From a virus: a stretch of DNA of 32,192 bases. The stretch covers positions 1 to 32,192 of the IMG/VR virus record IMGVR_UViG_3300027754_000287; one strand, written 5' to 3'. Positions 2,487 through 19,439 of the stretch are shown one piece after another. Below the pieces are notes generated by a model. The model did no database searches. It was given only the letters and a program-made list of their open reading frames with translations, and was not told the origin of the DNA. Each line of letters begins with the position of its first letter. Within the stretch, counting starts at the first letter, position 1. The translations under genes and the position numbers were made by a program.

Positions 2487-2488
2487 GG

Positions 2489-2496
2489 CATAAATA
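2489..2496 (+). promoter_or_regulatory. T4-type late promoter motif CATAAATA
   Basis: CATAAATA starts just after the stop codon at 2486 and ends 8 bases before the ATG at 2505. No ribosome-binding site lies between the motif and the ATG, so a transcript from here would have a leader of roughly 3 bases. Confidence 0.55.
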
Positions 2497-2504
2497 CCAG
2501 TGCC

Positions 2505-2837: not shown

Positions 2838-2838
2838 T

Positions 2839-3761: not shown

Positions 3762-3784
3762 TCACAAAGAGGTCTCAACTGACT

Positions 3785-4375: not shown

Positions 4376-4386
4376 GGATCACGATC

Positions 4387-5592: not shown

Positions 5593-5630
5593 GGACATCG
5601 ATTCGTAACATCAAGTAAAGGAAACTGCGG

Positions 5631-7298
5631 ATGAAATCCACTATTGATCATTTGACTAAATTGGCTGAACAGATAAAACAGATCACCGAAGCTGAAGTAC
5701 ATCGGGGCAGCATCTATGGACCGTCCTTTGACAGAAATGAAAAAGCACAGATGCGTAAAGAGGCTAAAAAGGTCAATGATTGGTACCGACAAGACTCTGA
5801 AAAAGAAAAAGATAAACAGGAAAAGTTGACAACCAAATCCCAGTCCACTCCTGGTGGATTGGCAAAGTATGTGCAAGAAGCTGAACAGCACCAGTATCAG
5901 CCAATGCCAGGTGATACGGTGAGCTTTGACATCAATGAAGAGCTGGAAATCACAGCTGAAGTCACTGACATAGTTGCCGATGGTGTTGTGCTGAATCTAG
6001 ATGAGACGGCATTGCGTTTGCTCGGTGGGTTGACCTTGATTACTGAAGAATATGATCAGAGTCATGGCAGTCCCTACGATCGTGGCAGTGCTGACAGTCA
6101 CTACGGTCGTGATAAAAAGCCGCATCGTTGGTGGGATAAACTGGGTCAGCAACGTGAAGAACTCACTGATCCTGCTGACATTGCTGCTTATCATGCTGGC
6201 TATGATGAAAACCAACGCAGTGGCGATAAGAAGCAATGGGACGAAAGCGACAGTACATCTCACGGTGTGATGGGCCTACATGGCAGGGTAAACGAAGCTG
6301 AATACCATGGTCGTGATGTGGCCCTGGGTAAGCCCATGCGAACCTCGGGTGGTCCTAAAAAATTCAGCGTTTATGTTCGGGATCCCAAGACTGGTAATGT
6401 AAAGAAAGTCAACTTTGGTGACCCTAACATGGAAATCAAGCGTGACGACCCAGCCCGACGTAAAAACTTCCGTGCTCGACATGGCTGCGGTACTGGTCGT
6501 GCCAGTAACCGAACCAAAGCTGCGTATTGGAGTTGTAAAATGTGGAGTAAAAAACCAGTCAGCAAGATCGTCAAAGAAGAGCTGGAATATCAGATTAATG
6601 AAGTATCTGATGAAGGCCTGGCTGCCATGCGCAGAATGGGCTTACAACAGGATCATGAAGGTGAGCTGGCACGAGCCAATTACGCCAGAATAACCGGAAA
6701 GCCCTGGACTGCTCCAGCTGATACTGATAATAGACATTATACTAAAACCAGTGCTGCGCCTGACACTCGTGCTTCATCTAGTGCTGGCACGCAAGCAGAC
6801 TGGGAAGATATTCGTAATACGAAATGGCACGACTACTATCGCGTTGCCAAATTGTATGTTGAGGTGCCTACGCCCAGATCATCAAAGATGTACCTCATCA
6901 GGAACTTTGTGATAACCCCAGAAGACTTCGCCAGGGGCGTGGGTAAGGTTTACATAAAGAAAAATGCACAATCAGATGAATATGAACCCGTAAATCTACA
7001 TGCCTTCAGTGGTTTGTATTTCTATGCAGGGGTGATGCCACTTACTGTTCGTCAAGCATATAATTTATTTCAATTTAAGAAGAAAAGTGGGGTAGCAGAA
7101 TCTGAGCATACTGTGGATGAAGTTCAGGTCAACGAGACCATAGTAAAACGCGGCGATGAATACTGTGTGGTCAGCAAGAGCAAAGACAGCAAAGGTCACC
7201 ATAAAAACCTGGGCTGTTCTGATACCCAAGCTGGTGCTAAACGACGCATGGGACAAGTGGAATACTTCAAGCATCAGGGAGAAGACAGTGCTGATTAA
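5631..7298 (+). CDS. Large modular putative head protein with repeated prohead-protease-like sites
   Basis: This is a 555-residue protein. Its N-terminal helix ends KQITE/AEVH, a good (Ile)-x-Glu/Ala prohead-protease-type site after residue 20. Similar sites or near-sites recur between otherwise distinct segments, near residues 83, 139, 222, 324 and 502. Residues 243-305 form a recognisable phage domain of unknown function with KFSVYVRDPKTGNVKKVNFG, then DPNMEIKRDDPARRKNFRAR, then HGCGTG and YWSCKMW. The last 50 residues (VVSKSKDSKGHHKNLG, then a segment ending QVEYFK) resemble a short module found on other phage structural proteins. Residues 400-480 may be another folded domain. The context is head assembly. 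The exact role is unknown, and scaffold, internal or decoration protein are all possible. The 3' end overlaps the next gene. Confidence 0.6.
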   Translation: MKSTIDHLTKLAEQIKQITEAEVHRGSIYGPSFDRNEKAQMRKEAKKVNDWYRQDSEKEKDKQEKLTTKSQSTPGGLAKYVQEAEQHQYQPMPGDTVSFDINEELEITAEVTDIVADGVVLNLDETALRLLGGLTLITEEYDQSHGSPYDRGSADSHYGRDKKPHRWWDKLGQQREELTDPADIAAYHAGYDENQRSGDKKQWDESDSTSHGVMGLHGRVNEAEYHGRDVALGKPMRTSGGPKKFSVYVRDPKTGNVKKVNFGDPNMEIKRDDPARRKNFRARHGCGTGRASNRTKAAYWSCKMWSKKPVSKIVKEELEYQINEVSDEGLAAMRRMGLQQDHEGELARANYARITGKPWTAPADTDNRHYTKTSAAPDTRASSSAGTQADWEDIRNTKWHDYYRVAKLYVEVPTPRSSKMYLIRNFVITPEDFARGVGKVYIKKNAQSDEYEPVNLHAFSGLYFYAGVMPLTVRQAYNLFQFKKKSGVAESEHTVDEVQVNETIVKRGDEYCVVSKSKDSKGHHKNLGCSDTQAGAKRRMGQVEYFKHQGEDSAD

Positions 7299-7659
7299 AG
7301 AATTATTGGAAGCAACGACCACTGGTAAGATGAATCCTGATCACAATGCAGCTATTCCCAATGCTCAGATGTTGACCAAGATTGATCAGGGTTATGGGCT
7401 ATATAGGTTCGGGTTACACATGGCCAGCAGTCCTGGAAAACCCAACATCAGTACTGTGGGACCCATTGGCACCACGCCATTCTTTGTTCCTTTCTCGCCT
7501 GAAGACGAAAATATCATCAATGTTGCTAGAAAAAATGGCGGATTTGGGCCAATGAAAAAGCTGACTCGTGGGCCCAGTAGGGAAACTGACGACACCCACA
7601 AGATTTCGCCAGTACACAGTGGCGCCAATAAGAAGAAAAAACCACGAAAACCCAGATAA
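7288..7659 (+). CDS. Small basic late protein, GTG start, putative head-associated
   Basis: This 123-residue protein has a proline/lysine-rich basic C-terminus (KKKKPRKPR). I chose the GTG at 7288 because GGGAGAAGACA precedes it and because the earlier in-frame ATG lies deep inside the upstream gene. It overlaps that gene by 11 bases. The N-terminus then reads MLIKELLE/ATTT, again a Leu-x-Glu/Ala site like the presumed capsid-targeting peptides upstream. The central segment (KMNPDHNAAIPNAQMLTKID, then a YGLYRFGLHMAGSP-like stretch, later ETDDTHKISPV) looks like a small conserved phage family without known function that I have a vague memory of. Membership of the head-protein cluster is inference from position and N-terminus. 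Confidence 0.6.
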   Translation: MLIKELLEATTTGKMNPDHNAAIPNAQMLTKIDQGYGLYRFGLHMASSPGKPNISTVGPIGTTPFFVPFSPEDENIINVARKNGGFGPMKKLTRGPSRETDDTHKISPVHSGANKKKKPRKPR

Positions 7660-7682
7660 CTCTGTACCCAGACACGGGGGTA

Positions 7683-8231
7683 TCAGCCCACGATGATTTG
7701 TTTAGCGGCTTTGTTACCCACCCTGAGATAGGGAATCCAGCTTTGATGTGCCACTTGCATGGGCAGTTCCAGTCGCTTAGCAGCTAGACCATAATAATCT
7801 GGGCGATAGGGCTTGTTAATGGGCGTCCATCGGTTATGGCCCTTGCGTAGATTACACCGCTTACAGCAAGTCACACAGTTTTCCCAGGAAGTCTTTCCAC
7901 CTTCACATCTGGGAACCACATGATCAATACTGAGTTCTTTGGGACTGAACAAGTCGTTGCAATAATTACAGCGATATAGGTCACGAATATACATCAGACT
8001 GCGACTAAATCTGATTCGACCCTTTTTAAAGTTAAACTGCTCGGTGGTTACTGCCACAGATGGCAACTGAATGACCATGCTGGGACTGTGTATAAACCGA
8101 TTTTCATACAGATGTACTGGTCGAATCTTGTCCAGAAACATCAGGCGAATACAGTCTTGCCAATCCACTATGCTCAGCGGTAGAAAATCCGCGGGCTCGT
8201 AGTTGGGAGTAAGGATAAGAGTTTCGCTCAT
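7683..8231 (-). CDS. HNH endonuclease (freestanding, leftward)
   Basis: This 182-residue leftward gene lies between the head cluster and the large terminase. The HNH core is at residues 86-132: C88-x2-C91, then IDHVVPRCEGG with catalytic-type D103-H104, WEN (N118), and C123-x2-C126-NLRKG. This is a Zn-stabilised ββα-metal nuclease fold that cuts DNA. The N-terminal 80 residues (a strand ending LILTPNYEPADFLPLS, DWQDCIRLMFLDK, QLPSV) match the bacterial HNH family often found as single genes. It may be a homing-type nuclease inserted among packaging genes, or an HNH protein that assists packaging as in HK97-type phages; the sequence does not decide. An extended -10 (TGC-TATACT) lies upstream on its own strand. 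Confidence 0.85.
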   Translation of the reverse strand: MSETLILTPNYEPADFLPLSIVDWQDCIRLMFLDKIRPVHLYENRFIHSPSMVIQLPSVAVTTEQFNFKKGRIRFSRSLMYIRDLYRCNYCNDLFSPKELSIDHVVPRCEGGKTSWENCVTCCKRCNLRKGHNRWTPINKPYRPDYYGLAAKRLELPMQVAHQSWIPYLRVGNKAAKQIIVG

Positions 8232-8252
8232 GTATGATCACCAATAATACTT

Positions 8253-8258
8253 AGTATA
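8253..8258 (-). promoter_or_regulatory. Extended -10 promoter (TGC-TATACT) for the HNH gene
   Basis: Read leftward, TGC precedes TATACT, the same -10 form as the early promoters further right. The hexamer ends 21 bases before the ATG at 8231. No convincing -35 box is present. Confidence 0.45.
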
Positions 8259-8285
8259 GCACAGCTTTGTCTATAAGTAACTGAT

Positions 8286-9851
8286 ATGAGTAAAGTATTA
8301 GATGTATCGCTGATCAAGAAACCACACCAGCAACTATCCTGGACTGAGCATCAGATTGGTGAAATAGTTCAGTGTGCTGATCACAATACTGGTCCTGAAT
8401 ATTTTTGTTCTAATTTTTTTTATATTCAACATCCCGTGCTGGGGCGAATTAAATATTCACCATATCACTACCAAGTTGGGTTACTATCAGCTTATCATAA
8501 TTATCGATTTGTGTGTGCAATGCTGGGTAGGCAGTTGGGGAAAACCACCACTGCGGCAGGGTATTTATTGTGGTACGCTATGTTTATTCCTGACAGTACT
8601 ATTTTAGTGGCAGCCCACAAGTACACTGGCGCTCAGGAAATCATGCAACGAGTTAGATATGCCTACGAATCTTGTCCTGATTATATCAGGGCAGGAGTAA
8701 CCAGCTACAACAAAGGCAGCATTGAATTTGAAAACGGCAGTCGCATAGTGGCACAGACCACAACTGAAACCACTGGTCGAGGTATGAGTATCAGTTTGTT
8801 GTATTCAGATGAATTTTCATATGTGCGCCCCAGTATTGCTCGAGAATTTTGGACAAGTATAAGTCCCACGCTGAGTACTGGCGGTAAGGCCATACTAACC
8901 AGTACTCCCAACAGTGATGAAGATCAGTTTGCTCACATCTGGAAAGCTGCGACACGGAATATTGATGAATATGGTAACACCACTGAGCTTGGACAAAATG
9001 GATTCAAAGCATTTTCTGCATTATGGCACGATCATCCAGATCGTGATGCTGCATGGGAAATCAGTGAACGCAGCAGAATCGGCAATGAGAGATTTGAACG
9101 TGAGCACAATTGTCGGTTTATCATCAATGATGAAACGCTGGTCAACAGTATGAAATTAGTTGCCCTGGCTGGTCGTGAGCCCAGTCGCCAGCAAGGGCAA
9201 GTCAGGTGGTATAAAGAACCTGAGAAGAACTGTGTGTATCTGGTGGCACTGGATCCCAGTCTGGGTACAGGTGGTGACTATGCAGCTATACAGGTATTTG
9301 AGTCACCCAGCATGACCCAGGTGGCTGAGTGGCAGCACAACCGTACACCAGTGCAGAAACAGATTTCAGTACTGAGAGAAATCACCCGCTACTTGGCTGA
9401 CGTTGTGGGCAATGAAAGTGTGTACTACAGTCTGGAAAACAACACCCTGGGCGAAGCAGCCCTGGTCAGCATCAGTGAAATTGGCGAGGAAAACATTGCT
9501 GGCACATTTCTCAGCGAACCAGCCAAAACTGGCACCACTCGCAGGTATCGCAAAGGATTCACCACCACCAATAAAACCAAACTGGCTGCGTGCAGCAAGC
9601 TCAAGAGCTTAATAGAGTCAGATCGTATGGTGCTGAACAGTGTGAATCTGGTGAGTGAGCTTAAGAACTTCATCAGCAGTGGTGCTGGATTTGCTGCCAA
9701 GAGCGGCGAAACAGATGATCTGGTGATGGCACTGGTGCTGATTATTAGAATGATGCAGACAGTGAAAACCTATCATCCAGATCTGGATCAGTATGTGACT
9801 GACCGCGGTGAAGAGATGTTGGAACCCATGCCCTTTATTGCGGTGTTCTAA
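8286..9851 (+). CDS. 17: Terminase large subunit, T4 gp17 family
   Basis: This 521-residue ATPase-nuclease pumps DNA into the prohead and cuts concatemers. The ATPase domain has Walker A GRQLGKTT (81-88), Walker B LLYSDEF (171-177, with the catalytic Asp-Glu pair) and coupling motif TSTPN (205-209). The C-terminal RNase H-fold nuclease shows the first acidic strand VALDPSLGTGGDYAAIQVFE (320-339), the second acidic position in SLENNTLGE and the final acidic pair in ETDDLVMAL (475-483). Length is near that of cyanophage gp17 and shorter than T4 (610). The ATG at 8286 has only a weak ribosome-binding site. It is separated from gp16 by 4.5 kb, including the leftward HNH gene. Confidence 0.95.
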   Translation: MSKVLDVSLIKKPHQQLSWTEHQIGEIVQCADHNTGPEYFCSNFFYIQHPVLGRIKYSPYHYQVGLLSAYHNYRFVCAMLGRQLGKTTTAAGYLLWYAMFIPDSTILVAAHKYTGAQEIMQRVRYAYESCPDYIRAGVTSYNKGSIEFENGSRIVAQTTTETTGRGMSISLLYSDEFSYVRPSIAREFWTSISPTLSTGGKAILTSTPNSDEDQFAHIWKAATRNIDEYGNTTELGQNGFKAFSALWHDHPDRDAAWEISERSRIGNERFEREHNCRFIINDETLVNSMKLVALAGREPSRQQGQVRWYKEPEKNCVYLVALDPSLGTGGDYAAIQVFESPSMTQVAEWQHNRTPVQKQISVLREITRYLADVVGNESVYYSLENNTLGEAALVSISEIGEENIAGTFLSEPAKTGTTRRYRKGFTTTNKTKLAACSKLKSLIESDRMVLNSVNLVSELKNFISSGAGFAAKSGETDDLVMALVLIIRMMQTVKTYHPDLDQYVTDRGEEMLEPMPFIAVF

Positions 9852-9865
9852 ATCTCATGCTGGAA

Positions 9866-9873
9866 CATAAATA
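9866..9873 (+). promoter_or_regulatory. T4-type late promoter motif CATAAATA
   Basis: The motif ends only 5 bases before the ATG at 9879. If initiation follows T4 spacing, transcription starts at or within a base or so of the start codon. Confidence 0.55.
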
Positions 9874-9878
9874 ACACT

Positions 9879-11606
9879 ATGCCGGATAATAAGATTCATG
9901 AAACCATATGTGCCGATCTCAATGATTGGGTGATGGCAAGATTCAACGCTGGACTGGAAAAAACACTGGATGCTGATGGCAACGACACCAGCGAGAAGAC
10001 CCAGATTACCACTTATGTGATCAATCTGGATCCGGAATCTGATGGCAGCGAGCCAGTGGTGATCAGTCTGGTGGATCATACTGAACAACCCAGTCAGAAC
10101 CGTGACAGTATAAAAGTATCATTTGACCATTCACTAATCCAGAGTCAGAATTCTGAGGTATCAGACAGTCTCAACAAGCTGACCACTGAACTCAAACAGT
10201 GGGCACAAAGCAATCTCATGGGATTTGAAATTCGTGATGTGAGTGTGCAAGCTGGCAAACGCGGTGAACATGGAAACGCCATTGCTGAGAGCAAGTTCTC
10301 AGCACTGACTGGCACAGTAAAAACCAGTGTACAGACACTGGAGAATGCCCGATTGGTCGTGAAGCATACTGACATCATCAATGATGATGTACGTGGAGCC
10401 AGAACACGCAGAATTCACAGAATCTATGTGGAAAACAATTCAGGCGAGCGGTTCCTGATGCCATTCAACAATCTGCGTGGTGCCCGTGCTATGGCGCGCC
10501 ATGTCAACGAGGGTGGCAACCCATATGATCAGCGTGGCCAGAGCATCAGCAATCTGGCAGAGGAAGCAGCTCAGCTGGGTAGATTTATGCGACGCACTCG
10601 CAACAGAACATTTGAAGACACTGTGGCACTGGACATGATTACCTCGGCATCACAACGCTTAACTGAGGTACGGACTTTGCTCACTCGTGTTAGTGGTGAA
10701 CGTGGCTATGCCCGGCATGCTGAGAACCTGGATCAGACTCCGGTAGTGGAATACGATCAGTCAGTCAAGCATCACTTTATCAGAAATCAGTATGACGAGC
10801 AGCTGGACAACAGTTTGCCCTATGCATGGAGAGCATATCAGATGACAAGACTACAGGAAACCGATGAGTTTGAAAGTTGGGCAAATCGCATAGTGAGTGA
10901 ACTGGATGACAATACCCTGGACACCAAACCCAACGCCAAATTGGCCCCCATACAGAAAGCACTGGGTATGAATACACCACAGGCTCAGACCACGGACCCG
11001 CTTACAGTGCAGATGAGTACTAAAAATACGCCAATGATCAGTTATGATCCCAAGGATGCTGACGCTAAGAAAAAGATTGCTGGACTGGTATCTGGCGGCG
11101 CCAAGATGCCAGCTGGTACTACCTTTGCTCCCATGTCAGAAGCTCCCACACAGGCCACACTGCGTGTGGTGTCTGGTAATGGCAAAGAAACTAAAATCAA
11201 TCTGAACCCTGCTAAGCTGGGTGATGACGCGCTGGGTCATAAAATTGAACAAATCAAGCAAGCTCATCCTGATGCCCAGTTCTATTATTCAGAAAATGGC
11301 GGTGCTGAGCAGGATCTACACGAAATGCTGGGTGGCGACAAAGCTGACGATTTGCTGCGGGATGTGTCTTCACCCGGTCAGGAAGCCACCACAGTGGACG
11401 ATCGTGAAAGCTATGATCATGGTCTCGCCGAAGACGACATGGAAGAAGGTAATAAATTCACTGGCGCTCGGGTAAAGGCCATCAAAGCTGGCAAGAACAG
11501 CTTCAACGTGGACGACGAACAGTATTCAGTTACTGGTGACACAGCTGATGAAAAGATTTCCGAAAGCCTGGCTCGTATCCTGCATCTAAGTGGAGTCCGC
11601 AAATAA
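9879..11606 (+). CDS. Conserved structural-type protein of unknown function (575 aa)
   Basis: This 575-residue protein, directly behind gp17, is driven by its own late-promoter motif. Residues 170-220 hold a conserved stretch: RGARTRRIHRIYVENNSGER, then FLMPFNNLRGARAMARHVNE. I associate this with hypothetical proteins of marine T4-like phages. The middle is helical and charged. Residues 360-500 are low in conservation. The C-terminus carries MEEGNKFTGARVKAIKAGK, followed by SFNVDDEQYSVTGDTADEK, a C-terminal module also seen on other phage head-type proteins. No catalytic motif is seen. Position between the terminase and a small zinc protein suggests a virion or assembly role, which is inference only. 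Confidence 0.7.
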   Translation: MPDNKIHETICADLNDWVMARFNAGLEKTLDADGNDTSEKTQITTYVINLDPESDGSEPVVISLVDHTEQPSQNRDSIKVSFDHSLIQSQNSEVSDSLNKLTTELKQWAQSNLMGFEIRDVSVQAGKRGEHGNAIAESKFSALTGTVKTSVQTLENARLVVKHTDIINDDVRGARTRRIHRIYVENNSGERFLMPFNNLRGARAMARHVNEGGNPYDQRGQSISNLAEEAAQLGRFMRRTRNRTFEDTVALDMITSASQRLTEVRTLLTRVSGERGYARHAENLDQTPVVEYDQSVKHHFIRNQYDEQLDNSLPYAWRAYQMTRLQETDEFESWANRIVSELDDNTLDTKPNAKLAPIQKALGMNTPQAQTTDPLTVQMSTKNTPMISYDPKDADAKKKIAGLVSGGAKMPAGTTFAPMSEAPTQATLRVVSGNGKETKINLNPAKLGDDALGHKIEQIKQAHPDAQFYYSENGGAEQDLHEMLGGDKADDLLRDVSSPGQEATTVDDRESYDHGLAEDDMEEGNKFTGARVKAIKAGKNSFNVDDEQYSVTGDTADEKISESLARILHLSGVRK

Positions 11607-11612
11607 CTCAAT

Positions 11613-11867
11613 ATGGCTGATCCAACTCCACAATTGCCCACTGTGACTCACATGTTAAAGAACTTGGCTGCTCAGGCGGTGGCCGTGGCTCAGGACGTAA
11701 TACACAATCGTCCAGTCATGGCCACACCTGAAGTCACAGCTTATCGGTTTAATATCTGCCAGGTTTGTGAATTCTTTGCTGACCCCAGATGTACTAAATG
11801 TGGATGTCACATGCCCAGCAAGACTCAGATTTCATCAGCCACTTGCCCTGAAAATTTCTGGCAATAA
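11613..11867 (+). CDS. Small zinc-binding protein with C-x2-C / C-x2-C-x-C cluster
   Basis: This 84-residue protein starts 6 bases after the previous stop. Residues 46-80 hold the pattern FNICQVCEFF ... CTKCGCHM ... ATCPENFW. The Cys set (C-x2-C, C-x2-C-x-C, C) makes a compact zinc knuckle typical of a small phage family that ends in CP-x-x-x-W. The N-terminal 40 residues are helical. The function is unknown; binding of nucleic acid or protein is possible. It closes the first late block, just before the promoter of the gp32 gene. Confidence 0.75.
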   Translation: MADPTPQLPTVTHMLKNLAAQAVAVAQDVIHNRPVMATPEVTAYRFNICQVCEFFADPRCTKCGCHMPSKTQISSATCPENFWQ

Positions 11868-11892
11868 TTCCTAAATAAATCCTCCATTTTCC

Positions 11893-11921
11893 TTGAACCA
11901 TGCTAAATACTCTGCTATACT
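11893..11921 (+). promoter_or_regulatory. Sigma70-type promoter for gp32
   Basis: The -35 box TTGAAC (11893-11898), a 17-base spacer and an extended -10 TGC-TATACT (-10 at 11916-11921) make a strong promoter. Expected transcription start is near 11928, giving an approximately 83-base leader. The -10 lies inside an inverted repeat, CTATACTTAATAGTATAG (11915-11932), which could be an operator or a start-site hairpin. Confidence 0.8.
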
Positions 11922-11936
11922 TAATAGTATAGTAAT

Positions 11937-11987
11937 TGAGACCATCTCATATACTAAGCATAGATAACCCACTCGGGAGTGAGTGGG
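11937..11987 (+). promoter_or_regulatory. Structured gp32 leader: two hairpins before the ribosome-binding site
   Basis: Two perfect hairpins lie in the gp32 leader. TGAGA/TCTCA (11937-11949) has a 3-base loop. CCCACTC/GAGTGGG (11968-11974 with 11981-11987) has a 6-base loop. The second ends 23 bases before the ATG, just upstream of the AAGGAAAA ribosome-binding site. In T4, gp32 represses its own translation by binding a structured leader, so this is a candidate operator. No pseudoknot partner for the loop was found. Confidence 0.5.
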
Positions 11988-12010
11988 GGACATACAAGGA
12001 AAACTACAAA

Positions 12011-12997
12011 ATGGCATCACTAGCAGAAATTCGAGCACGACTTCAGAGTCAAGAAACACGCAACACCGGCGGGTCCAACATGGACAAGAGCATTTATCCG
12101 CACTGGAACATCCAGGAAGGTGAAAGTTGTTTAATCCGATTCCTTCCCGACGGCAACGACAAAAACACATTCTTCTGGGTAGAACGAGCGATGATTCGCC
12201 TGCCTTTCAGCGGCGTCAAGGGTGGCGAAAACAAGCAGGTCAGTGTACAGGTTCCCTGTGTGGAAATGTGGGGCGAAACTTGCCCAGTGCTGACTGAAGT
12301 TCGTCCCTGGTTCAAAGACGCCAGCCTGGAAGAACTGGGTCGTAAGTACTGGAAGAAACGCAGCTACCTGTTACAGGGCTTTGTGCGTGAAAATCCCGCA
12401 GAAAAAGACGGCGCACCAGAAAATCCTGTTCGCAGGTTTATCCTGAGTCCGCAGTTGTTCAACCTGGTCAAGGGTGCGTTGATGGATCCCGAACTGGAAG
12501 AACTGCCCACGGATTACAATCGTGGACTGGATTTCCGTATCACCAAGACTGCCAAGGGCGGTTATGCTGACTACGGCACCAGCAAGTGGGCTCGCAAGGA
12601 AAGCGCACTGACTCAGATCGAGCGTGACGCTGTTGATAAGCACAGTTTGTTTAATCTCACTGACTTTATGCCCAAGAAACCCACTGCGGTGGAGCTCAAG
12701 GTCATCAAAGAAATGTTTGAAGCCAGTGTGGATGGACAGCCGTATGATCCAGCTCGTTGGGCACAGTATTACAAGCCCGCAGGATTGACTGGTAACTGGG
12801 GAAATGCAGCGCCAGCAGCTGATGCTGATGATGCACCTGCGGTAACTACTCGCAAGGTTACTGCACCAGCTGCAGAAGCTGATGACGACGATACTCCGCC
12901 GTTTGACGTCACCAAGCCCGCGGTGGCTGCACCAGCAGTCAAGAGCCAAAAAGCTGAAGATATTCTGGCCATGATCAGAAATCGTCAGAAAGCCTAA
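12011..12997 (+). CDS. 32: Single-stranded DNA-binding protein, T4 gp32 family
   Basis: This 328-residue protein coats ssDNA during replication and recombination and partners UvsX. The start at 12011 follows AAGGAAAA and gives the short basic N-terminal arm (MASLAEIRARLQSQETRN) used in gp32 for cooperative binding. The core follows: WNIQEGESCLIRFLPDGND, then WVERAMIRLPFSGVKGG, then VQVPCVEMWGETCPVLTEVR with a Cys pair suited to the gp32 zinc site, and KYWKKRSYLLQGFVREN. The last 70 residues are Ala/Asp/Glu-rich and end in a short conserved helix. This corresponds to the acidic gp32 tail that binds other replication proteins. It has its own promoter and structured leader, and a terminator follows directly. 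T4 gp32 is 301 residues. Confidence 0.9.
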   Translation: MASLAEIRARLQSQETRNTGGSNMDKSIYPHWNIQEGESCLIRFLPDGNDKNTFFWVERAMIRLPFSGVKGGENKQVSVQVPCVEMWGETCPVLTEVRPWFKDASLEELGRKYWKKRSYLLQGFVRENPAEKDGAPENPVRRFILSPQLFNLVKGALMDPELEELPTDYNRGLDFRITKTAKGGYADYGTSKWARKESALTQIERDAVDKHSLFNLTDFMPKKPTAVELKVIKEMFEASVDGQPYDPARWAQYYKPAGLTGNWGNAAPAADADDAPAVTTRKVTAPAAEADDDDTPPFDVTKPAVAAPAVKSQKAEDILAMIRNRQKA

Positions 12998-13008
12998 TCA
13001 CTCGGAGG

Positions 13009-13044
13009 AAGTCACGCTTGGGTTCGCCTGGGCGTGACTTTTTT
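13009..13044 (+). terminator. Intrinsic terminator with UUCG tetraloop between gp32 and uvsX
   Basis: A 14-bp stem (13009-13022 with 13027-13040, including G-U pairs) closes a UUCG loop and is followed by six T's (13039-13044). No separate promoter is evident before uvsX, so some read-through is expected. This would give far more gp32 than UvsX mRNA. Confidence 0.9.
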
Positions 13045-13078
13045 CTATTCTAAAATCTCAGAGTACAAGGTAAATTAT

Positions 13079-14155
13079 ATGGGAAAACCGTTCGACATCA
13101 CTAAATTTCGTAAAGAGCTCACAAAAAGTATTGACGGCATGGGCTTTGGCTTTAATGATCCTACCGACTGGATCAGCACTGGCAATTGGGCATTAAACTA
13201 TCGCATCAGTGGTAACTTTGACTGGGGTATCCCGCTGGGCAAAGTAACTGTGTTTGCTGGCGAATCAGGTTCGGGGAAAAGTTTTATTTGTTCAGGAAAC
13301 ATTATAAAGCACGCTCAAGCACAGGGTATTTTCGTTGTGCTGGTAGACACTGAAAATGCTCTGGACGAAGCCTGGCTACAGCGACTGGGCGTGGACACCA
13401 GTGAAAGCAAACTGCTGAAGCTGAATATCAGCATGATTGACGATGTGGCCAAGACCATCAGCATGTTTATGAAGGATTACAAAACTATCCCTGAGGGCGA
13501 AGACAAGCCCAAGGTGTTGTTTGTGATCGACAGCCTGGGCATGATGCTGACTCCCACTGACGTGGATCAGTTTGACAAGGGCGATATGAAGGGTGACATG
13601 GGTCGCAAGCCCAAGGCACTGACCAGCTTGGTACGCAACTGTGTGAATATGTTTGGCAGCCACAATGTGGGATTGGTAGCCACCAATCACACCTATGCGT
13701 CACAGGACATGTTTGACCCTGATGACAAGATCTCAGGCGGCCAAGGTTTTATCTACGCCAGCAGCATTGTGGTGGCCATGCGCAAACTGAAACTCAAAGA
13801 AGATGCTGACGGCAACAAAGTATCAGATGTTCTGGGTATTCGTGCTGCTTGTAAGATTATGAAAACACGCTACGCTAAACCGTTTGAATCAGTACAGATC
13901 AAGATCCCCTATGACACTGGTATGAGCCCACATAGTGGTATGACTGACCTATTGGAAAAGATTGGGTTGCTGACCAAAGATGGCAACCGATTGATCTATA
14001 AACTCAGTGACGGCTCAGAAATCAAATCGTTCCGCAGAGTATTCGAAACCAATGAGAACAGTGTGTGGGAAACCATTATACAAGATCTCAAAGCTAACCC
14101 TGCCAGATTAAATACTTCCAAAGCCACAGAGGTAGAAGACACCAATGCAGATTGA
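13079..14155 (+). CDS. uvsX: UvsX recombinase (RecA family)
   Basis: This 358-residue strand-exchange protein forms filaments on ssDNA for recombination-dependent replication and repair. Walker A is GESGSGKS (61-68), the catalytic Glu region is VDTENALDEAW (89-99), and Walker B is VLFVIDSLG (146-154). The DNA-binding L1/L2 regions lie between about residues 157 and 225, with ATNHTYASQDMFDPDDKISG and GGQGFIYASS. T4 UvsX is 391 residues. I chose the ATG at 13079 because AAGG lies 8 bases upstream and because an earlier in-frame start would fall inside the terminator hairpin. It overlaps the next small gene by 11 bases. Partners in the window are gp32 upstream and UvsW further right. Confidence 0.95.
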   Translation: MGKPFDITKFRKELTKSIDGMGFGFNDPTDWISTGNWALNYRISGNFDWGIPLGKVTVFAGESGSGKSFICSGNIIKHAQAQGIFVVLVDTENALDEAWLQRLGVDTSESKLLKLNISMIDDVAKTISMFMKDYKTIPEGEDKPKVLFVIDSLGMMLTPTDVDQFDKGDMKGDMGRKPKALTSLVRNCVNMFGSHNVGLVATNHTYASQDMFDPDDKISGGQGFIYASSIVVAMRKLKLKEDADGNKVSDVLGIRAACKIMKTRYAKPFESVQIKIPYDTGMSPHSGMTDLLEKIGLLTKDGNRLIYKLSDGSEIKSFRRVFETNENSVWETIIQDLKANPARLNTSKATEVEDTNAD

Positions 14156-14396
14156 AAATGTAGACATAGCCGCTGATATTTGGAAAAACCTGGTGGAGTA
14201 TATTCCCGCCAGGGACCGCGAGGCCGCTGCTGAACAGTTTGTGGTGGCATTGCGCCGATTGGATTTCACTGATGAAGACTTTGCTCAGCTGGCTGAAGTG
14301 GATCACCATATCGATGATGTACTGACCCTGGAAGCCCAAGAGGAAGAAGTTTTCGAACAGGCTGACGATGATGAATATCAAGACACTCGCTACTAA
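14145..14396 (+). CDS. Small acidic protein of unknown function downstream of uvsX
   Basis: This 83-residue protein starts within the last codons of uvsX (11-base overlap) and ends 3 bases before the next gene, so the three are likely translated as one operon. It is strongly acidic, ending QEEEVFEQADDDEYQDTRY. The middle (FVVALRRLDFTDEDFAQLAE) looks helical. I recognise no family. Its tight coupling to uvsX makes a role as an accessory of recombination conceivable, but nothing in the sequence shows it. Confidence 0.7.
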   Translation: MQIENVDIAADIWKNLVEYIPARDREAAAEQFVVALRRLDFTDEDFAQLAEVDHHIDDVLTLEAQEEEVFEQADDDEYQDTRY

Positions 14397-14399
14397 CCC

Positions 14400-14852
14400 A
14401 TGTGGTATACTCGAGTCACACAGGATCTAGGGTTACTGCCGGATTTTCTGGAGCACTTTCGCACAGAACTGGCCCAGTCCAGAGTAGAAACCATTATCAA
14501 AGGCAATATTGAACGGCATCTGGCAGCACTGCCTGGGGTTACTGAGCAAAGGTTTGCTCAACTTCAGGAAATTGAAGCCGTGCTGAACTATCTTAATATT
14601 CAGCTGAGAAAGATTCGCCGTAAGCATTTCCAGGCTTATCTGGAGAAGTACAGCAAAGCACTCAGCAGCCGTGATGCTGAGAAATATGCTGATGGCGAGC
14701 AGGAAGTCATTGATTACGAATGTCTGATCAATGAAGTGGCTCTGATGCGCAATCAGTATCTGGGTGTGATCAAAGCACTGGATGCCAAGAACTGGACGCT
14801 GAGCAATATTGTAAAGCTGAGGGTGGCTGGAATGGACGACGCATCAATTTAG
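14400..14852 (+). CDS. Conserved T4-like hypothetical protein in the uvsX operon
   Basis: This 150-residue, helix-rich protein has a long charged region: RFAQLQEIEAVLNYLNIQL, then RKIRRKHFQAYLEKYSKALS, then SRDAEKYADGEQEVIDYE. It ends WTLSNIVKLRVAGMDDASI. I associate this pattern with a protein conserved in marine T4-like phages and of no known function. UvsY, the T4 recombination mediator, would be expected near uvsX and has a similar size, but I see no UvsY-specific motif, so I do not assign that name. It is the last gene of the uvsX operon, and a strong terminator follows 22 bases after the stop. Confidence 0.7.
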   Translation: MWYTRVTQDLGLLPDFLEHFRTELAQSRVETIIKGNIERHLAALPGVTEQRFAQLQEIEAVLNYLNIQLRKIRRKHFQAYLEKYSKALSSRDAEKYADGEQEVIDYECLINEVALMRNQYLGVIKALDAKNWTLSNIVKLRVAGMDDASI

Positions 14853-14873
14853 AGTTTACGTTGGCAGCGTAAT

Positions 14874-14911
14874 GGGCCCAGACTGACTTCGGTCACTGGG
14901 CCCTGTTTTTT
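14874..14911 (+). terminator. Intrinsic terminator with UUCG loop ending the uvsX operon
   Basis: GGGCCCAG (14874-14881) pairs with CTGGGCCC (14896-14903). Inside it TGAC/GTCA closes a UUCG loop. TG and then six T's (14906-14911) follow. The next promoter begins 5 bases later. Confidence 0.9.
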
Positions 14912-14915
14912 CTGG

Positions 14916-14944
14916 TTGACTCTGGCCAGACCGTTTGCTAAACT
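14916..14944 (+). promoter_or_regulatory. Early promoter, cassette family (start codon at the expected +1)
   Basis: -35 TTGACT (14916-14921), 17-base spacer and -10 TAAACT (14939-14944). The spacer contains AGACCGTTTGC, shared with promoters at 16920, 17746 and 18280. The following bases resemble the shared leader (GAGTAGCAGAAATACAC), but the annotated ATG lies inside it at 14951. Confidence 0.75.
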
Positions 14945-14950
14945 CAGGAT

Positions 14951-15457
14951 ATGAGCAAAGAACACGCATTGATGCGAGACGTGATTGTCAAGTATCATCC
15001 TAAATTCGTTGGTAACCCCATCATGATCGAGAATGCTCTGGCAAACCCTGAGCTGTTCAACATCACTGGGATGATAGAACAATGTCTAGCTAACGCTAGT
15101 GGCGGCCAATACACTTTGGTGGGCGTGACTGGGGCTGTCTCTGATTTCTCTGACAATAGTGATAGTAAAACTGTAACTGTTTCTCGATATCCCACCGGCG
15201 CTATTAGGGGTGCAGTCCAGGGGATCAACACCAAAATAGGTGGTCTCAGAATTGTCATCTACAACAGTGTGGAAGACCGTACTGATTATATGTATATTCC
15301 TGCCGAACATGTGCATAATTTTGCGAATCCATGCTTTGGCAAGCGATCATATGACACTCGACTACGACTGAACTATAACCCACAACATGACAGCTATAAT
15401 AAGTTCGATCGGTTTCGAGTTCCCTCGTTTCTGGTGCTGGCGACAACAATGTACTGA
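14951..15457 (+). CDS. Unknown early protein (168 aa), possibly from a leaderless mRNA
   Basis: This 168-residue protein has no family I recognise. The C-terminal half looks beta-rich and folded: KIGGLRIVIYNSVEDRTDYM, then YIPAEHVHNFANP, then a Tyr/Arg-rich end. The middle (SDFSDNSDSKTVTVSRYPTG) is a polar linker. The ATG at 14951 lies just where transcription should start, and no ribosome-binding site precedes it or the next in-frame ATG at 14972, which would remove 7 residues. The gene stands alone between a terminator upstream and the promoter of the RNA ligase downstream. Confidence 0.7.
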   Translation: MSKEHALMRDVIVKYHPKFVGNPIMIENALANPELFNITGMIEQCLANASGGQYTLVGVTGAVSDFSDNSDSKTVTVSRYPTGAIRGAVQGINTKIGGLRIVIYNSVEDRTDYMYIPAEHVHNFANPCFGKRSYDTRLRLNYNPQHDSYNKFDRFRVPSFLVLATTMY

Positions 15458-15470
15458 CATAAATCAGTGG

Positions 15471-15520
15471 TTGACACTGGCCACCCCAGTTGCTATACTG
15501 ATTGAGTAGCAGAAATACAC
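15471..15520 (+). promoter_or_regulatory. Early promoter cassette with shared leader, upstream of RNA ligase
   Basis: -35 TTGACA (15471-15476), 17-base spacer and extended -10 TGC-TATACT (-10 at 15494-15499), followed by the shared leader GAGTAGCAGAAATACAC (15504-15520). An AAGGA ribosome-binding site precedes the ATG at 15542. Confidence 0.9.
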
Positions 15521-15541
15521 CCTGGACACACAAGGAAACCA

Positions 15542-16549
15542 ATGCGAAAGCTTGCAACAATCCGCCAAGTGGCGGCCATCACAGCAATACCCAATGCCGA
15601 CGCTATCGAATGCGTCACGGTAGACGGCTGGCGAGTAGTTTCCAAGCGGGGCGAGTTTGCTCTGGGCGATCTTTGTGTTTACTTTGAGATTGACAGTGTA
15701 CTGCCAGAACGGCAAGAATTTGAATTCCTGCGTAAAAGCAGCTATGTCAAGAATGAAAAATTTCAGGGTTTCAGGCTGAAAACTATTCGTCTGCGCGGTC
15801 AAATCAGTCAAGGGCTAGTGCTGCCTATGCTGCCTGAGCTGACAACCAGTCAGCTGGGCGATGATGTCACTGAACTGCTGGGTGTGATCAAATGGGAACC
15901 GAGTATTCCAGCTCAGCTCAGTGGCGTGGCAGTGGGTCGTTTTCCCTCGTTTATTCCCCACACTGACCAGGAACGAATTCAGAATCTCACAGCCGAGCTG
16001 GCTGCATGGGGCCAGACACAATCGCAGTGGGAAATCACTGAGAAGTTGGATGGTACCAGCATGACTGTGTTTTACAACCAGGATCATGTGGGTGTGTGTG
16101 GCAGAAACTGGGAACTCAGCGGGGAGGGTGGCAACAGTCTGTGGGCTATGGCTCGTAAGCTGGATCTGCCAGCCAAGCTCACAGCATTGGGGCGAAACAT
16201 TGCGTTGCAGGGCGAGCTGATTGGTCAGGGTATTCAGGGAAATCATTACCAGCTGGTTCAGCCTGAGTTCCGTCTGTTTGACGTCTGGGATATTGACTCT
16301 CAGCAGTATCTCAACAGTTATGATCGTGAGCTGCTGTGTCGGGATCTGGGTGTATTGCACTGCCCTATCCTGTCACAGGGGGTTAGCCTGGATAGCTCCA
16401 TCACTGTGGATCAGCTGCTGGCACGGGCAGAAGGCGGCAGTAATCTCAACCCTGCTCGTACCCGTGAGGGACTGGTTTACAAGTGTATCAATGATCCCAG
16501 TGTCAGCTTCAAAGCCATCAGCAACCAGTTTCTGCTGGGTGAAAAATAG
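15542..16549 (+). CDS. ATP-dependent RNA ligase, DRB0094 (Rnl5)-like
   Basis: This 335-residue nucleotidyltransferase joins RNA ends via an enzyme-adenylate. Motif I is TEKLDGTS (166-173), with K168 the lysine that takes AMP. Motif III is the stretch LQGELIGQGIQGN (222-234) with FRLFDVW (IIIa) after it. Motif IV is REGLVYK (308-314) and motif V SFKAIS (322-327). The N-terminal 110 residues (VDGWRVVSKRGEFALGDLCV and a segment with YFEIDSVLP) form the extra OB-like domain found in the Deinococcus DRB0094-type ligases, unlike T4 Rnl1 or Rnl2. No polynucleotide kinase-phosphatase gene is visible beside it. A likely role is repair of host or phage tRNA or RNA cut during infection. It shares its promoter with the pentapeptide-repeat gene. 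Confidence 0.9.
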   Translation: MRKLATIRQVAAITAIPNADAIECVTVDGWRVVSKRGEFALGDLCVYFEIDSVLPERQEFEFLRKSSYVKNEKFQGFRLKTIRLRGQISQGLVLPMLPELTTSQLGDDVTELLGVIKWEPSIPAQLSGVAVGRFPSFIPHTDQERIQNLTAELAAWGQTQSQWEITEKLDGTSMTVFYNQDHVGVCGRNWELSGEGGNSLWAMARKLDLPAKLTALGRNIALQGELIGQGIQGNHYQLVQPEFRLFDVWDIDSQQYLNSYDRELLCRDLGVLHCPILSQGVSLDSSITVDQLLARAEGGSNLNPARTREGLVYKCINDPSVSFKAISNQFLLGEK

Positions 16550-16554
16550 CTTTT

Positions 16555-16923
16555 ATGGTCCATGGATACATCATCACGCCAGGTGCTGACCTCAGAGGTG
16601 CAGATCTCAGCAATGCTGACCTCGTCTATGCCAACCTCAGATGTGCTGACCTCAGGCGTGCTGACCTCAGGCGTGCTTACCTCGTCTATGCCAACCTCAC
16701 TGGTGCAGACCTCACTGATGCTCTCCTCGGTGGTGCTTACCTCACTGGTGCAGACCTCACTAATGCTCTCCTCACTGGTGCAGATTTCAGTGTTGCTTGG
16801 TTCAGGGAAACCAAGGTCACAGCAGACCAGTTGATGTGGATGACTTTATCTGGGCAGATCACCCCAAATCAGGCTAATCGCTTTCTGTGTGATGTTGAAA
16901 ACACTGGGCAATCAGTTGGTTGA
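16555..16923 (+). CDS. Pentapeptide-repeat protein
   Basis: This 122-residue protein starts 5 bases after the RNA-ligase stop. Residues 11-80 are about 14 consecutive A(D/N/Y)LxX units (ADLRG-ADLSN-ADLVY-ANLRC), which fold into a right-handed quadrilateral beta-helix. The DNA shows this as imperfect 15-base repeats ending with CTCA or CTCG. The C-terminal 40 residues (WMTLSGQITPNQANRF) are not repetitive. Some pentapeptide proteins mimic DNA and inhibit gyrase, but many have no known target, so no function is assigned. The 3' end of the gene, together with the promoter behind it, is duplicated just downstream. Its stop codon overlaps the -35 box of the next promoter. Confidence 0.85.
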   Translation: MVHGYIITPGADLRGADLSNADLVYANLRCADLRRADLRRAYLVYANLTGADLTDALLGGAYLTGADLTNALLTGADFSVAWFRETKVTADQLMWMTLSGQITPNQANRFLCDVENTGQSVG

Positions 16924-17064
16924 CGCGGGATAGACCGTTTGCTATACTAGTTGATGTGGATGACTTTATCTGGGCAGATCACCCCTGATCAAGCTGCTGG
17001 TTGTAAAGTGTTGAAAACACAGGAAAAACCAATGGTTGACACTGACCAAACCGGTTGCTATACT
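16831..17064 (+). repeat. Diverged tandem duplication: end of pentapeptide gene plus promoter
   Basis: Copy 1 (16831-16948) and copy 2 (16949-17064) both begin with the same 37 bases (16831-16867 and 16949-16985, starting AGTTGATGTGGATGAC). Both then carry GTTGAAAACAC and end with a complete early promoter (TTGAC...TATACT). Copy 2 preserves a codon string equivalent to WMTLSGQITP without a start, so it is a gene-end remnant. Confidence 0.85.
16920..16948 (+). promoter_or_regulatory. Early promoter cassette, upstream copy of duplicated pair
   Basis: -35 TTGACG (16920-16925), 17-base spacer and extended -10 TGC-TATACT (-10 at 16943-16948). It overlaps the pentapeptide stop codon. GTTGAAAACACTGG (16894-16907) lies upstream, as before the promoter at 18280. 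The shared leader is missing here; the next copy of the duplication follows instead. Confidence 0.8.
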
Positions 17065-17085
17065 AGTTGAGTAGCAGAAATACAC
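17036..17085 (+). promoter_or_regulatory. Early promoter cassette with shared leader, upstream of the 17102 gene
   Basis: -35 TTGACA (17036-17041), 17-base spacer, extended -10 TGC-TATACT (-10 at 17059-17064) and the shared leader GAGTAGCAGAAATACAC (17069-17085), followed by AAGGA and the ATG at 17102. GTTGAAAACAC (17010-17020) lies upstream. Confidence 0.9.
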
Positions 17086-17101
17086 AAGGATACTACACAC
17101 A

Positions 17102-17467
17102 ATGACCAACTTAAAAAACTTTCGTCCCGTGACCCAGAAGTTTGTGACCAAGATGGATACGCTGTTGAAAGCCAATGGCTATATCATGACAATCACCGAG
17201 GTTGGACGCGGTGTTGAGTGGAACAAAGGCAATCCTTGCGAAGGGAAAACCAAACAATTCTACTTCACTGACTTTGACTCTACGTTCGTCGAGGACGACG
17301 ATATGTTTTTCAGCATGACCAACTTCACGGGTTGGACGGAGGGCGGTACTCAAGCAGATTTTGACTTTCTTTATGAATCCGTGACGGCAGTGCTGATCAA
17401 TCGCAAATCGGGTCGCAGTGTACGGGAACAGAACCCAGCTCGCTTGAGCAATCGCAAGGTTTGCTAA
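17102..17467 (+). CDS. Unknown early protein (121 aa)
   Basis: This 121-residue protein has no family I recognise. It has a basic N-terminus (MTNLKNFRPVTQKFVTKMD), a central stretch rich in Phe, Asp and Thr (KQFYFTDFDSTFVEDDDMFF) and a basic C-terminus (NRKSGRSVREQNPARLSNRK). It stands alone, with its own promoter cassette 17 bases upstream and a long structured non-coding stretch behind. Small early T4-type proteins in such accessory regions often target host functions, but nothing here shows a target. The start is set by AAGGATACTACACACA before the ATG. Confidence 0.7.
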   Translation: MTNLKNFRPVTQKFVTKMDTLLKANGYIMTITEVGRGVEWNKGNPCEGKTKQFYFTDFDSTFVEDDDMFFSMTNFTGWTEGGTQADFDFLYESVTAVLINRKSGRSVREQNPARLSNRKVC

Positions 17468-17745
17468 ACTCAACGGAATCAACAACTTAGCAACATCAAT
17501 GGAATCAACAACTTAGCGAAATCCAGCTCTGTCGCGTGTTGAAAACCCCAGTATGGGGTACTGATACCCCAACCCAGTGGTGAATGCGTTCCTGGGCGTT
17601 TCTAGAGCTGTCACAGAGCTGAGATTGTACTGTGACACAGTGAATTCGCCCAGTTCCTGCTCAGCTAAACTCAACGAAATCAACAGGTTAGCTAAGTTGT
17701 TGATAGCAAAGCAGTTAGATTCTTAAACTTTTTTACCGTATTTGG
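17468..17745 (+). other. Non-coding stretch with repeats and several hairpins (possible structured RNA)
   Basis: No gene is seen here. The stretch opens with two near-copies of GGAATCAACAACTTAGC (17475-17491 and 17501-17517). A related copy, with GCTAA and TTAGC at its ends, lies at 17664-17692. Hairpins: GGGGTA/TACCCC (17555-17570); CTGGGCG/CGCCCAG (17592-17598 with 17647-17653) enclosing TGTCACAG/CTGTGACA (17609-17616 with 17630-17637); and ATCAACA/TGTTGAT (17679-17685 with 17698-17704). GTTGAAAAC occurs at 17538. Six T's lie at 17729-17734 but not directly after a stem. A small RNA, or the 3' end of the upstream mRNA, is possible. Confidence 0.5.
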
Positions 17746-17795
17746 TAGACACTGAGTAGACCGTTTGCTATACTTATGGAGTAGCAGAAATACAC
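17746..17795 (+). promoter_or_regulatory. Early promoter cassette with shared leader, upstream of the 17813 gene
   Basis: -35 TAGACA (17746-17751), 17-base spacer containing AGACCGTTTGC, -10 TATACT (17769-17774) and the shared leader GAGTAGCAGAAATACAC (17779-17795). Confidence 0.85.
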
Positions 17796-17812
17796 ACCAC
17801 ACCGAGGACACA

Positions 17813-18250
17813 ATGACAACTAACGATCTAGTATTGACAACTATGCTAGTAAAAGAAGCGATGGGGTTCAACAGTCCCATTGTCAGCCTGGGTTATAACA
17901 AGGCTGGACAGGTTGTGATACGCAAGGCCAAATATGCAGTTCCCGAGGGTTATACGCCCAGCCCGCTACCCGCAGGTCACCGCCTTCTCCATACCCCTTC
18001 TGCCGCATTAACCCGGTTACGGTCTACGATTGTGCCTGGATACACTGCTGAGCAATTTGTTGAGGATTTGATGACCAATTTTGCAGAACACGCTGCCCTA
18101 ATCCCGCGTCACGCGATCAATGTTGAAGTTGTGGAATCCGGACTGACCCTCAAAACTCGTACTGATACCACTCCGCTGGACCCACGATCCCCTTCTTTTG
18201 TATACAAGTCCCCTGGGCAGCTTAACCACTGGTATGCGATTTTGGCGTAA
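17813..18250 (+). CDS. Unknown early protein (145 aa)
   Basis: This 145-residue protein is not a family I recognise. The ATG at 17813 is chosen because the frame extends upstream only into the promoter, and because it lies about 30 bases after the expected transcription start, behind GAGGACACA. It has a hydrophobic, possibly folded N-terminal half (LVLTTMLVKEAMGFNSPIVS, then VVIRKAKYAVPEGY), a Pro/Leu-rich linker and a C-terminal segment with FVYKSPGQLNHWYAIL. No Cys, membrane segment or signal peptide is seen. The next promoter cassette begins almost at once after the stop. Confidence 0.7.
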   Translation: MTTNDLVLTTMLVKEAMGFNSPIVSLGYNKAGQVVIRKAKYAVPEGYTPSPLPAGHRLLHTPSAALTRLRSTIVPGYTAEQFVEDLMTNFAEHAALIPRHAINVEVVESGLTLKTRTDTTPLDPRSPSFVYKSPGQLNHWYAILA

Positions 18251-18279
18251 CTTGTTGAAAACACTGGCCAATCTTTTAG

Positions 18280-18329
18280 TTGACGCGGTATAGACCGTTT
18301 GCTATACTTAATGAGTAGCAGAAATACAC
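18280..18329 (+). promoter_or_regulatory. Early promoter cassette with shared leader, upstream of the AAA+ ATPase
   Basis: -35 TTGACG (18280-18285), 17-base spacer with AGACCGTTTGC, -10 TATACT (18303-18308) and shared leader (18313-18329). GTTGAAAACACTGG at 18254-18267 matches the element upstream of the promoter at 16920. Confidence 0.9.
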
Positions 18330-18353: not shown

Positions 18354-19361
18354 ATGGCAATGAAACTTCAAGTTCGAGTAATCCGTGGACAGTACAAAGA
18401 CGAGACGGTGGCGAACAAGCTGTTCACGATGTTTGAAGATTGCAGTGAAAATGGCTACATCGTAGTGGACGGCAAGAGCTGGGGTAAAGGCAAGGTTCGT
18501 GTTAAGCTCAACGCTGGTGACTTTGATGTGCTGAGCACTGGTCCTGCTGTGGATGATGAGTACGAGTTTGTGGCAGCTGAGCCGGCGGTGACCGAGACGG
18601 ACGAAGAAATCATGGCCCGCATTGGCGCCCGCTTCGAGATCCTGGATGAAATGACCCGCGCCACCATCGCCGGCGACATCCGCGCAATGATCGTTCAGGG
18701 CCCTCCGGGCGTGGGCAAGAGCTATGGTGTCACCACCCAGCTGGAGCAGGCCAACTTGTTTCAGGACATCGCGGGTCGTGCTCCTAAATATGAAGTGATC
18801 AAAGGCGCTCTTACCCCGCTGGGGTTATACGCGACATTGTATAAACACAGTGACCCGGGTCACGTGTTGGTGTTTGATGATTGCGACATGTTGTTTTATG
18901 ATGATCTCAGCTTGAACATTCTCAAGGCGGCACTGGACAGCGGTAAGAAACGCAGGATCTGCTGGAATGCTGACAGTCATATGTTACGTCGTGAAGGCGT
19001 GCCGGACAGCTTCGACTTCAAGGGTTCGGTAATCTTCATCACCAACTTGGACTTTGCTCACATCCGGAGCAGCAAATTGCAAGATCATTTGGCCGCCCTG
19101 CAGAGCCGTTGCCACTTTATTGACCTGTCGGTTAATTCACGCCGTGACAAGATCCTGCGCATTGAGCAGGTGATTGATGCTGGTATGTTGAATGAGTACG
19201 GCTTCAGTGAAGTTGAGAAGAAAGAACTGGTACAGTTTGTAAAAACTCATGCTGATCGTATGCGTGAGATCAGCTTGCGGTTGATCATTAAGATAGCTGA
19301 TCTTAAGAAAATCATGCCGCTGACATGGAAAAGGACGGCAGAAGTTACCCTGATGAAGTAG
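18354..19361 (+). CDS. AAA+ ATPase
   Basis: This 335-residue protein has one AAA+ module. Walker A is GPPGVGKS (116-123), Walker B VLVFDDCD (171-178) and sensor 1 FITN (228-231). A likely arginine-finger region follows in SSKLQDHLAALQSR (239-252). The N-terminal 75 residues are a separate small, beta-looking domain. This is not the clamp loader gp44 or helicase gp41; it resembles stand-alone phage or plasmid AAA+ proteins that remodel protein or nucleic acid, and its partner is unknown. From about 18580 to 18780 the DNA is clearly richer in G+C, with many GCC and CGC codons, than its neighbours, which suggests separate ancestry. It is followed by a long hairpin. Confidence 0.85.
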   Translation: MAMKLQVRVIRGQYKDETVANKLFTMFEDCSENGYIVVDGKSWGKGKVRVKLNAGDFDVLSTGPAVDDEYEFVAAEPAVTETDEEIMARIGARFEILDEMTRATIAGDIRAMIVQGPPGVGKSYGVTTQLEQANLFQDIAGRAPKYEVIKGALTPLGLYATLYKHSDPGHVLVFDDCDMLFYDDLSLNILKAALDSGKKRRICWNADSHMLRREGVPDSFDFKGSVIFITNLDFAHIRSSKLQDHLAALQSRCHFIDLSVNSRRDKILRIEQVIDAGMLNEYGFSEVEKKELVQFVKTHADRMREISLRLIIKIADLKKIMPLTWKRTAEVTLMK

Positions 19362-19409: not shown

Positions 19410-19439
19410 TTGACATCAGAAACACAACAGTGCTATACT
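19410..19439 (+). promoter_or_regulatory. Sigma70-type promoter upstream of the 19457 gene
   Basis: Consensus -35 TTGACA (19410-19415), 18-base spacer and extended -10 TGC-TATACT (-10 at 19434-19439). Unlike the cassette family, the spacer is unrelated and the shared leader is absent. It leads into an operon with uvsW. Confidence 0.8.

Follow-up and report, generated by a model that had tools for sequence, protein, structure and literature searches.

The window analysed here, a 32,192-base stretch of an IMG/VR record, has T4-like gene content, with genes for terminase, UvsX, UvsY, RNA ligase, an AAA+ ATPase and a UvsW-like helicase. Its terminase is ~55% identical to that of the PA5oct-group Pseudomonas phages, the nearest isolates by this protein; a megablast search against isolated phages returned no match to the region at the DNA level. 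All genomes compared with the window are metagenome contigs, among them its relatives G006 (contig 3300043409_002455) and G001 (contig 3300021519_000184, from a different metagenome). Six near-copies of a predicted σ70-type extended −10 promoter lie within 14916–18308, in the segment from uvsY to the AAA gene, and are numbered here as cassettes 1 to 6 (−35 starts at 14916, 15471, 16920, 17036, 17746 and 18280; Table 1). The cassettes are restricted to this segment: scanning the remaining 28 kb of the window with a profile built from the six turned up no additional copy. At 19410 lies a looser relative of the promoter that lacks the leader, and the cassette promoter was not found in the 44 kb of PA5oct-group isolates examined.

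Table 1 Features of the uvsY–AAA segment and flanking genes (window positions).
Positions	Strand	Feature	Family or basis
13079–14155		UvsX gene	
14400–14852		UvsY gene	phrog_231
14874–14911	+	Intrinsic terminator, GGGCCCAG..UUCG..CTGGGCCC and T-run, ending the uvsY transcript 5′ of cassette 1	Sequence; fold z −2.69
14916–14944	+	Cassette 1: TTGACT-CTGGCCAGACCGTT-TGC-TAAACT, without leader	
14951–15457	+	Cassette-1 gene, 168 aa; orthologue in L123	No family
15471–15520	+	Cassette 2: promoter and leader (15504–15520), predicted +1 at 15506	
15542–16549	+	RNA ligase gene, 3′ of cassette 2	phrog_968, PF09414
16555–16923	+	Pentapeptide-repeat protein gene; stop codon overlaps the −35 of cassette 3	
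16894–16948	+	Cassette 3: GTTGAAAACAC and promoter (16920–16948), leader lost; G001 indel breakpoint	
16946–17061	+	Diverged second copy of the pentapeptide-gene tail, fused to another cassette; junction AGTTGA	Repeat D15
17010–17085	+	Cassette 4: GTTGAAAACAC, promoter (17036) and leader (17069–17085), predicted +1 at 17071	
17102–17467	+	Cassette-4 gene, 121 aa	No family
17470–17634	+	Hairpin-rich intergenic block; partial element GTTGAAAAC at 17538	
17746–17795	+	Cassette 5: promoter (−35 TAGACA) and leader (17779–17795), predicted +1 at 17781	
17813–18250	+	Accessory gene, 145 aa; in the window and G001, missing from G006	No family
18254–18329	+	Cassette 6: GTTGAAAACAC, promoter (18280) and leader (18313–18329), predicted +1 at 18315	
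18354–19361	+	AAA+ ATPase gene behind cassette 6, conserved across T4-like phages	phrog_1250
20602		UvsW-like helicase	

All six promoters have a 17-nt spacing and an extended −10 (TGC), and they match the σ70 consensus at 9–11 of 12 bases, with the TG in every case. The −10 reads TATACT in five (TAAACT at 14916), and the −35 at 17746 is TAGACA. The full −35/spacer/−10 pattern is matched five times in the window and not once in 100 shuffles. The first-pass annotation had listed these six promoters with their boxes, a string common to most spacers, a leader shared by four cassettes and an element upstream of three. Its coordinates proved correct throughout, and the spacer string AGACCGTTTGC is exact in four of the six, the deviating spacers being those at 15471 (ACCCCAGTTGC) and 17036 (AAACCGGTTGC). 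The leader, a 17-mer (GAGTAGCAGAAATACAC), is exact at 15504, 17069, 17779 and 18313 and nowhere else in the window, far beyond the 0.08 occurrences expected by chance with three mismatches allowed. The upstream element GTTGAAAACAC, that is GTTGAAAAC(AC), is likewise present at 16894, 17010 and 18254, which places GTTGAAAAC exactly 26 nt 5′ of the −35 in these three cassettes, and a further, partial copy lies at 17538. By position, the predicted +1 is the third base of GAGTAG, 7 nt past the −10, and the ATG of the gene follows the −10 by 37–45 nt in the four leadered promoters. Cassette 1 is predicted to be leaderless, its ATG at 14951 being the expected +1, and the start codon of its gene aligns with that of the L123 orthologue; cassette 3 has lost both its own gene and its leader. 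From these sequence features we infer promoter activity for the cassettes and, by analogy, early timing.

The terminator preceding cassette 1 is conserved in G001 and G006, with a similar hairpin in L123, and is the sole clear stem-loop adjoining any of the six cassettes. A Pfam search gave nothing for the accessory genes of no known family. The hairpin-rich block between cassettes 4 and 5 is 83–88% conserved and inverted in G002 and G003, with similar motifs at the orthologous L123 site; it matched no Rfam family and showed no significant fold. Simple tandem duplication was rejected as the whole origin of cassettes 3 and 4, as the second pentapeptide tail stands at 88% to G007/L012 vs 77% to the first copy. 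Action of the neighbouring RNA ligase on the leader was considered and dropped, as no evidence for it was found.

Beyond the window, the exact leader occurs in eight stretches on seven other viral contigs, and the longer promoter-leader pattern in 28 viral stretches. The reading of the first-pass annotation would have failed had the cassettes been unrelated outside their −35 and −10 boxes, or had the same strings been common in host promoters. Neither was the case: the cassettes are related well past the boxes, and a search of 84,980 bacterial and archaeal species genomes with the promoter-leader pattern gave two isolated matches, from which the rest of the leader is absent. Judged by its occurrence, the promoter-leader string is a phage string rather than a host string within that collection.

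Comparison with sister phages revealed whole genes present or absent between cassettes. G006 is 98.7% identical to the window over 7554–17812 and then resumes at window position 18275; it lacks the gene at 17813–18250, and its junction is a hybrid of the upstream half of cassette 5 (17746) and the downstream half of cassette 6 (18280), with the crossover within 20 shared bp, TAGACCGTTTGCTATACTTA. Because the more distant G001 has this gene, it is simpler to assume that G006 lost it. G001 itself parallels the window up to 16948, the last base of the cassette-3 −10, and rejoins it near 17009, at the start of the cassette-4 element. Between these breakpoints it carries a leader, a gene of 59 aa and then another full cassette, the extra gene being flanked by complete cassettes on both sides. 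In addition, the G001 orthologue of gene 17102 bears a leader of the 18280 type with its SD and ATGGC, a combination that in the window belongs to gene 18354; from this shared leader-to-ATG run it follows that a leader moved between genes. In an independent lineage, L134 and L135 (99.6% identical) differ in the presence of a single gene, and their junction is a hybrid cassette with ~8 bp shared; in L026/L029, a gene loss has one of its ends inside a leader. Each hybrid junction comes from a single assembly of metagenomic fragments, and the shared runs (20 bp and ~8 bp) are short for assembly collapse. Over the 11 kb compared, both whole-gene indels have both ends in cassettes; the other indels above 50 bp, one of 72 bp near 10980 and the intein of the G001 uvsX gene, do not involve whole genes. 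This mini-intein (C...HN/S; L094 5192–5614, window insertion point 13271) lies in UvsX at the Walker A region and is found in neither the window nor G006.

In other T4-like phages, too, the AAA gene is surrounded by similar arrays, of up to 11 copies, with a spacer and leader private to each lineage, as in L018 (TTGACACTTTCTCAATAACTGCTATACT then ACACCCATAGACGCAAACAGCTGGAG). Spacer identity was 0.49 within genomes vs 0.28 between them, and leader identity 0.49 vs 0.35, values that none of 2000 label shuffles reached. For 36 of 70 leadered cassettes the nearest neighbour was another cassette of the same genome, compared with a shuffled mean of 4.3 and maximum of 14; the label shuffles ignore the genome tree, and some genomes are related, a relatedness that works against the within-genome effect. 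The AAA-gene cassette was closer to the other cassettes of its own genome than to AAA cassettes elsewhere in four of five genomes, while L038 is an exception, without the within-genome effect. As far as these sequence comparisons reach, likeness within lineages combined with divergence between them is concerted evolution. The string GAGTAGCAG is kept in phages with diverged spacers (L123, L135 and L128, at loci found by the GAGTAG pattern), and copying alone is for that reason insufficient to explain its persistence; alternatively, leader homogeneity could be maintained by selection. In L018, positions 1372–7278 hold 11 cassettes, several of them before paralogous repeat proteins (GKLHREDGPAIE-type) with the same starting residues, and on account of these shared residues the genes may perhaps have been duplicated together with their cassettes.

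The positions of the conserved parts suggest what they may do. Of the 16 upstream occurrences of TGTTGAAAAC, 9 start exactly 27 nt 5′ of the −35, and GTTGAAAAC lies within 60 nt upstream of 12 of 30 profile matches (19 copies in total, on both strands, in 139 kb of cassette-bearing contigs that include some close relatives). Because the A-tract of GTTGAAAAC sits where the distal UP subsite is expected, we prefer to read it as a putative contact for the alpha-CTD; an operator for a phage regulator is a possible alternative. Among 94 leadered promoters, a purine occupies +1 in 73, T stands at +2 in 64 and A at +3 in 60. Their leaders are 44% A, fold more weakly than shuffles and contain an SD-like run in 63 of the 94, usually 5–8 nt before the ATG. 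GAGTAG after the same promoter also precedes tRNA genes (L115 1557 and L116 17033), so the first bases of the leader belong to initiation and not to translation; the rest of it reads as a probable open, unstructured, A-rich and SD-bearing 5′ UTR. The features conserved across lineages are the extended −10, an A-tract ~56 nt upstream of +1 and RTA at +1 to +3, a set that fits RNA polymerase itself.

Three further observations concern what follows these promoters or shares their contigs. In L116, a tRNA with a CTA anticodon (amber-reading) lies directly behind the same promoter core (17033–17154). The cassette-bearing phage contig L110 (3300009181_000297) has an Rfam permuted tmRNA at 15317–15508 (88.6 bits), where ARAGORN reports none. 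A predicted leaderless class comprises 27 of 194 distinct promoter matches (window 14916–14951 and 26 sites in relatives), counted where an ATG with at least 50 open codons stands at the expected +1, exactly 6 nt past the −10; 0.9 would be expected per offset, and offsets 5 and 7 have two each. A second mode of ATG offsets spans 22–45 nt past the −10.

Cassette identity, hybrid junctions, gene presence or absence bounded by cassettes and homogeneity within lineages are all seen directly. The explanation we consider highly probable is that the cassettes are modular early-promoter/leader units, acting both as host-σ70 switches and as homology blocks for gene exchange, and kept alike by that exchange. 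Each would supply a strong host-σ70 promoter with a ready-made 5′ UTR and ribosome site, and would place short homology at gene borders, where whole genes could be added, deleted or swapped behind a working promoter. Exchange would proceed through the phage's own recombination system (UvsX/UvsY, whose genes lie just upstream) or through template switching during replication or repair, the enzymes being presumed; together with gene conversion among copies, it would keep spacers and leaders alike within a lineage while lineages drift apart. The first-pass annotation had weighed recent copying, which gives each accessory gene its own switch, against a factor that reads the spacer or leader. The recombination products in sister phages and the lineage-wise concerted evolution support the former, and the latter is unneeded.

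Such a factor, of phage or host (a sigma-appropriating activator, an RNA-binding protein or a nuclease), under which selection would keep the copies identical, seems improbable to us. An exact leader in four copies, the retention of GAGTAGCAG in L123, L135 and L128 despite different spacers, and the fixed distance of the upstream element all speak for it, but spacers vary freely between relatives, other lineages have other sequences in place of the leader at orthologous genes, and the same core serves leaderless (ATG at +1) and tRNA genes; co-divergence would moreover be needed in each lineage. Hybrid cassettes and gene indels at cassettes are hard to reconcile with exchange-free convergence towards an optimal strong promoter and 5′ UTR. 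Although all copies fit the σ70 extended −10 consensus, and lineages unrelated to one another show RTA at +1 to +3 and A-rich leaders, the identity extends to positions that RNA polymerase does not need, and the early leaders of T4 average 0.33 identity (six promoters), so we regard convergence as very unlikely. We give scarcely any credence to an assembly artefact in which mis-joins at repeats mimic gene loss and gain: the genomes are metagenome contigs with junctions within repeats, yet the shared runs are short, the L134/L135 hybrid rests on ~8 bp, and G001, assembled from a different metagenome, has full cassettes on both sides of its extra gene.

The closest known system is that of the PeSL (promoter-early stem-loop) cassettes of T4-type phages, reported as composites of promoter and stem-loop that have been shown to act in gene shuffling (PMC4503421, citing Arbiol et al. 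2010, doi 10.1093/gbe/evq006, and Comeau et al. 2014, doi 10.1093/gbe/evu129); the title of Comeau et al. likewise pairs promoter and terminator. In T4, ~50 bp of homology suffices for recombination (PMC4177764). Like PeSLs, the cassettes repeat an early-type promoter at the borders of genes, within a variable region of a T4-like genome (uvsY to the AAA gene), and they mark the points at which close relatives have gained or lost genes (G006, G001, L134/L135). Unlike PeSLs, five of the six have no stem-loop or terminator, their five upstream regions folding no better than shuffles, and the repeated block, lineage-specific in sequence, starts at the upstream A-tract element, spans the spacer and reaches into the 5′ UTR. 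A stricter terminator scan (loops of up to 8, which misses the 14874 hairpin) gave 5 hits at 121 promoters vs 3 in 400 random windows. Because a stem-loop was found only at cassette 1, we place the cassettes as a variant of PeSL and not as members, though they resemble PeSLs in their working.

The cassettes also resemble T4 early promoters, which are strong UP/−35/TGn/−10 promoters for the unmodified host polymerase (PMC2988021), the UP element here being assigned by the position of TGTTGAAAAC. They differ from them in that the T4 leaders in the stretch examined are not mutual copies (0.33 identity) and the T4 −35 there is of the TTTAC type. With the SAS/ESAS of cluster K mycobacteriophages (PMC3203893) they share repeats before many small genes and a consensus that may differ between genomes, whereas SAS are tied to translation initiation sites and the present repeat begins upstream of the −35, with a full promoter in the unit.

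We tentatively raise the possibility that many uncultured T4-like phages keep a private promoter-leader of up to ~12 copies, alike by exchange, as a recombination address. If so, genes would move freely and ready for expression among phages that share an address, and phages with other addresses would be partly isolated. The natural recombination products indicate how a T4-like phage can gain or drop single genes with expression intact, and they extend the PeSL idea to uncultured T4-like lineages, with a homology block made of promoter and 5′ UTR and not of promoter and terminator. The lineage-specific sequences offer a simple tag for linking contigs and for predicting early genes and exchange partners.
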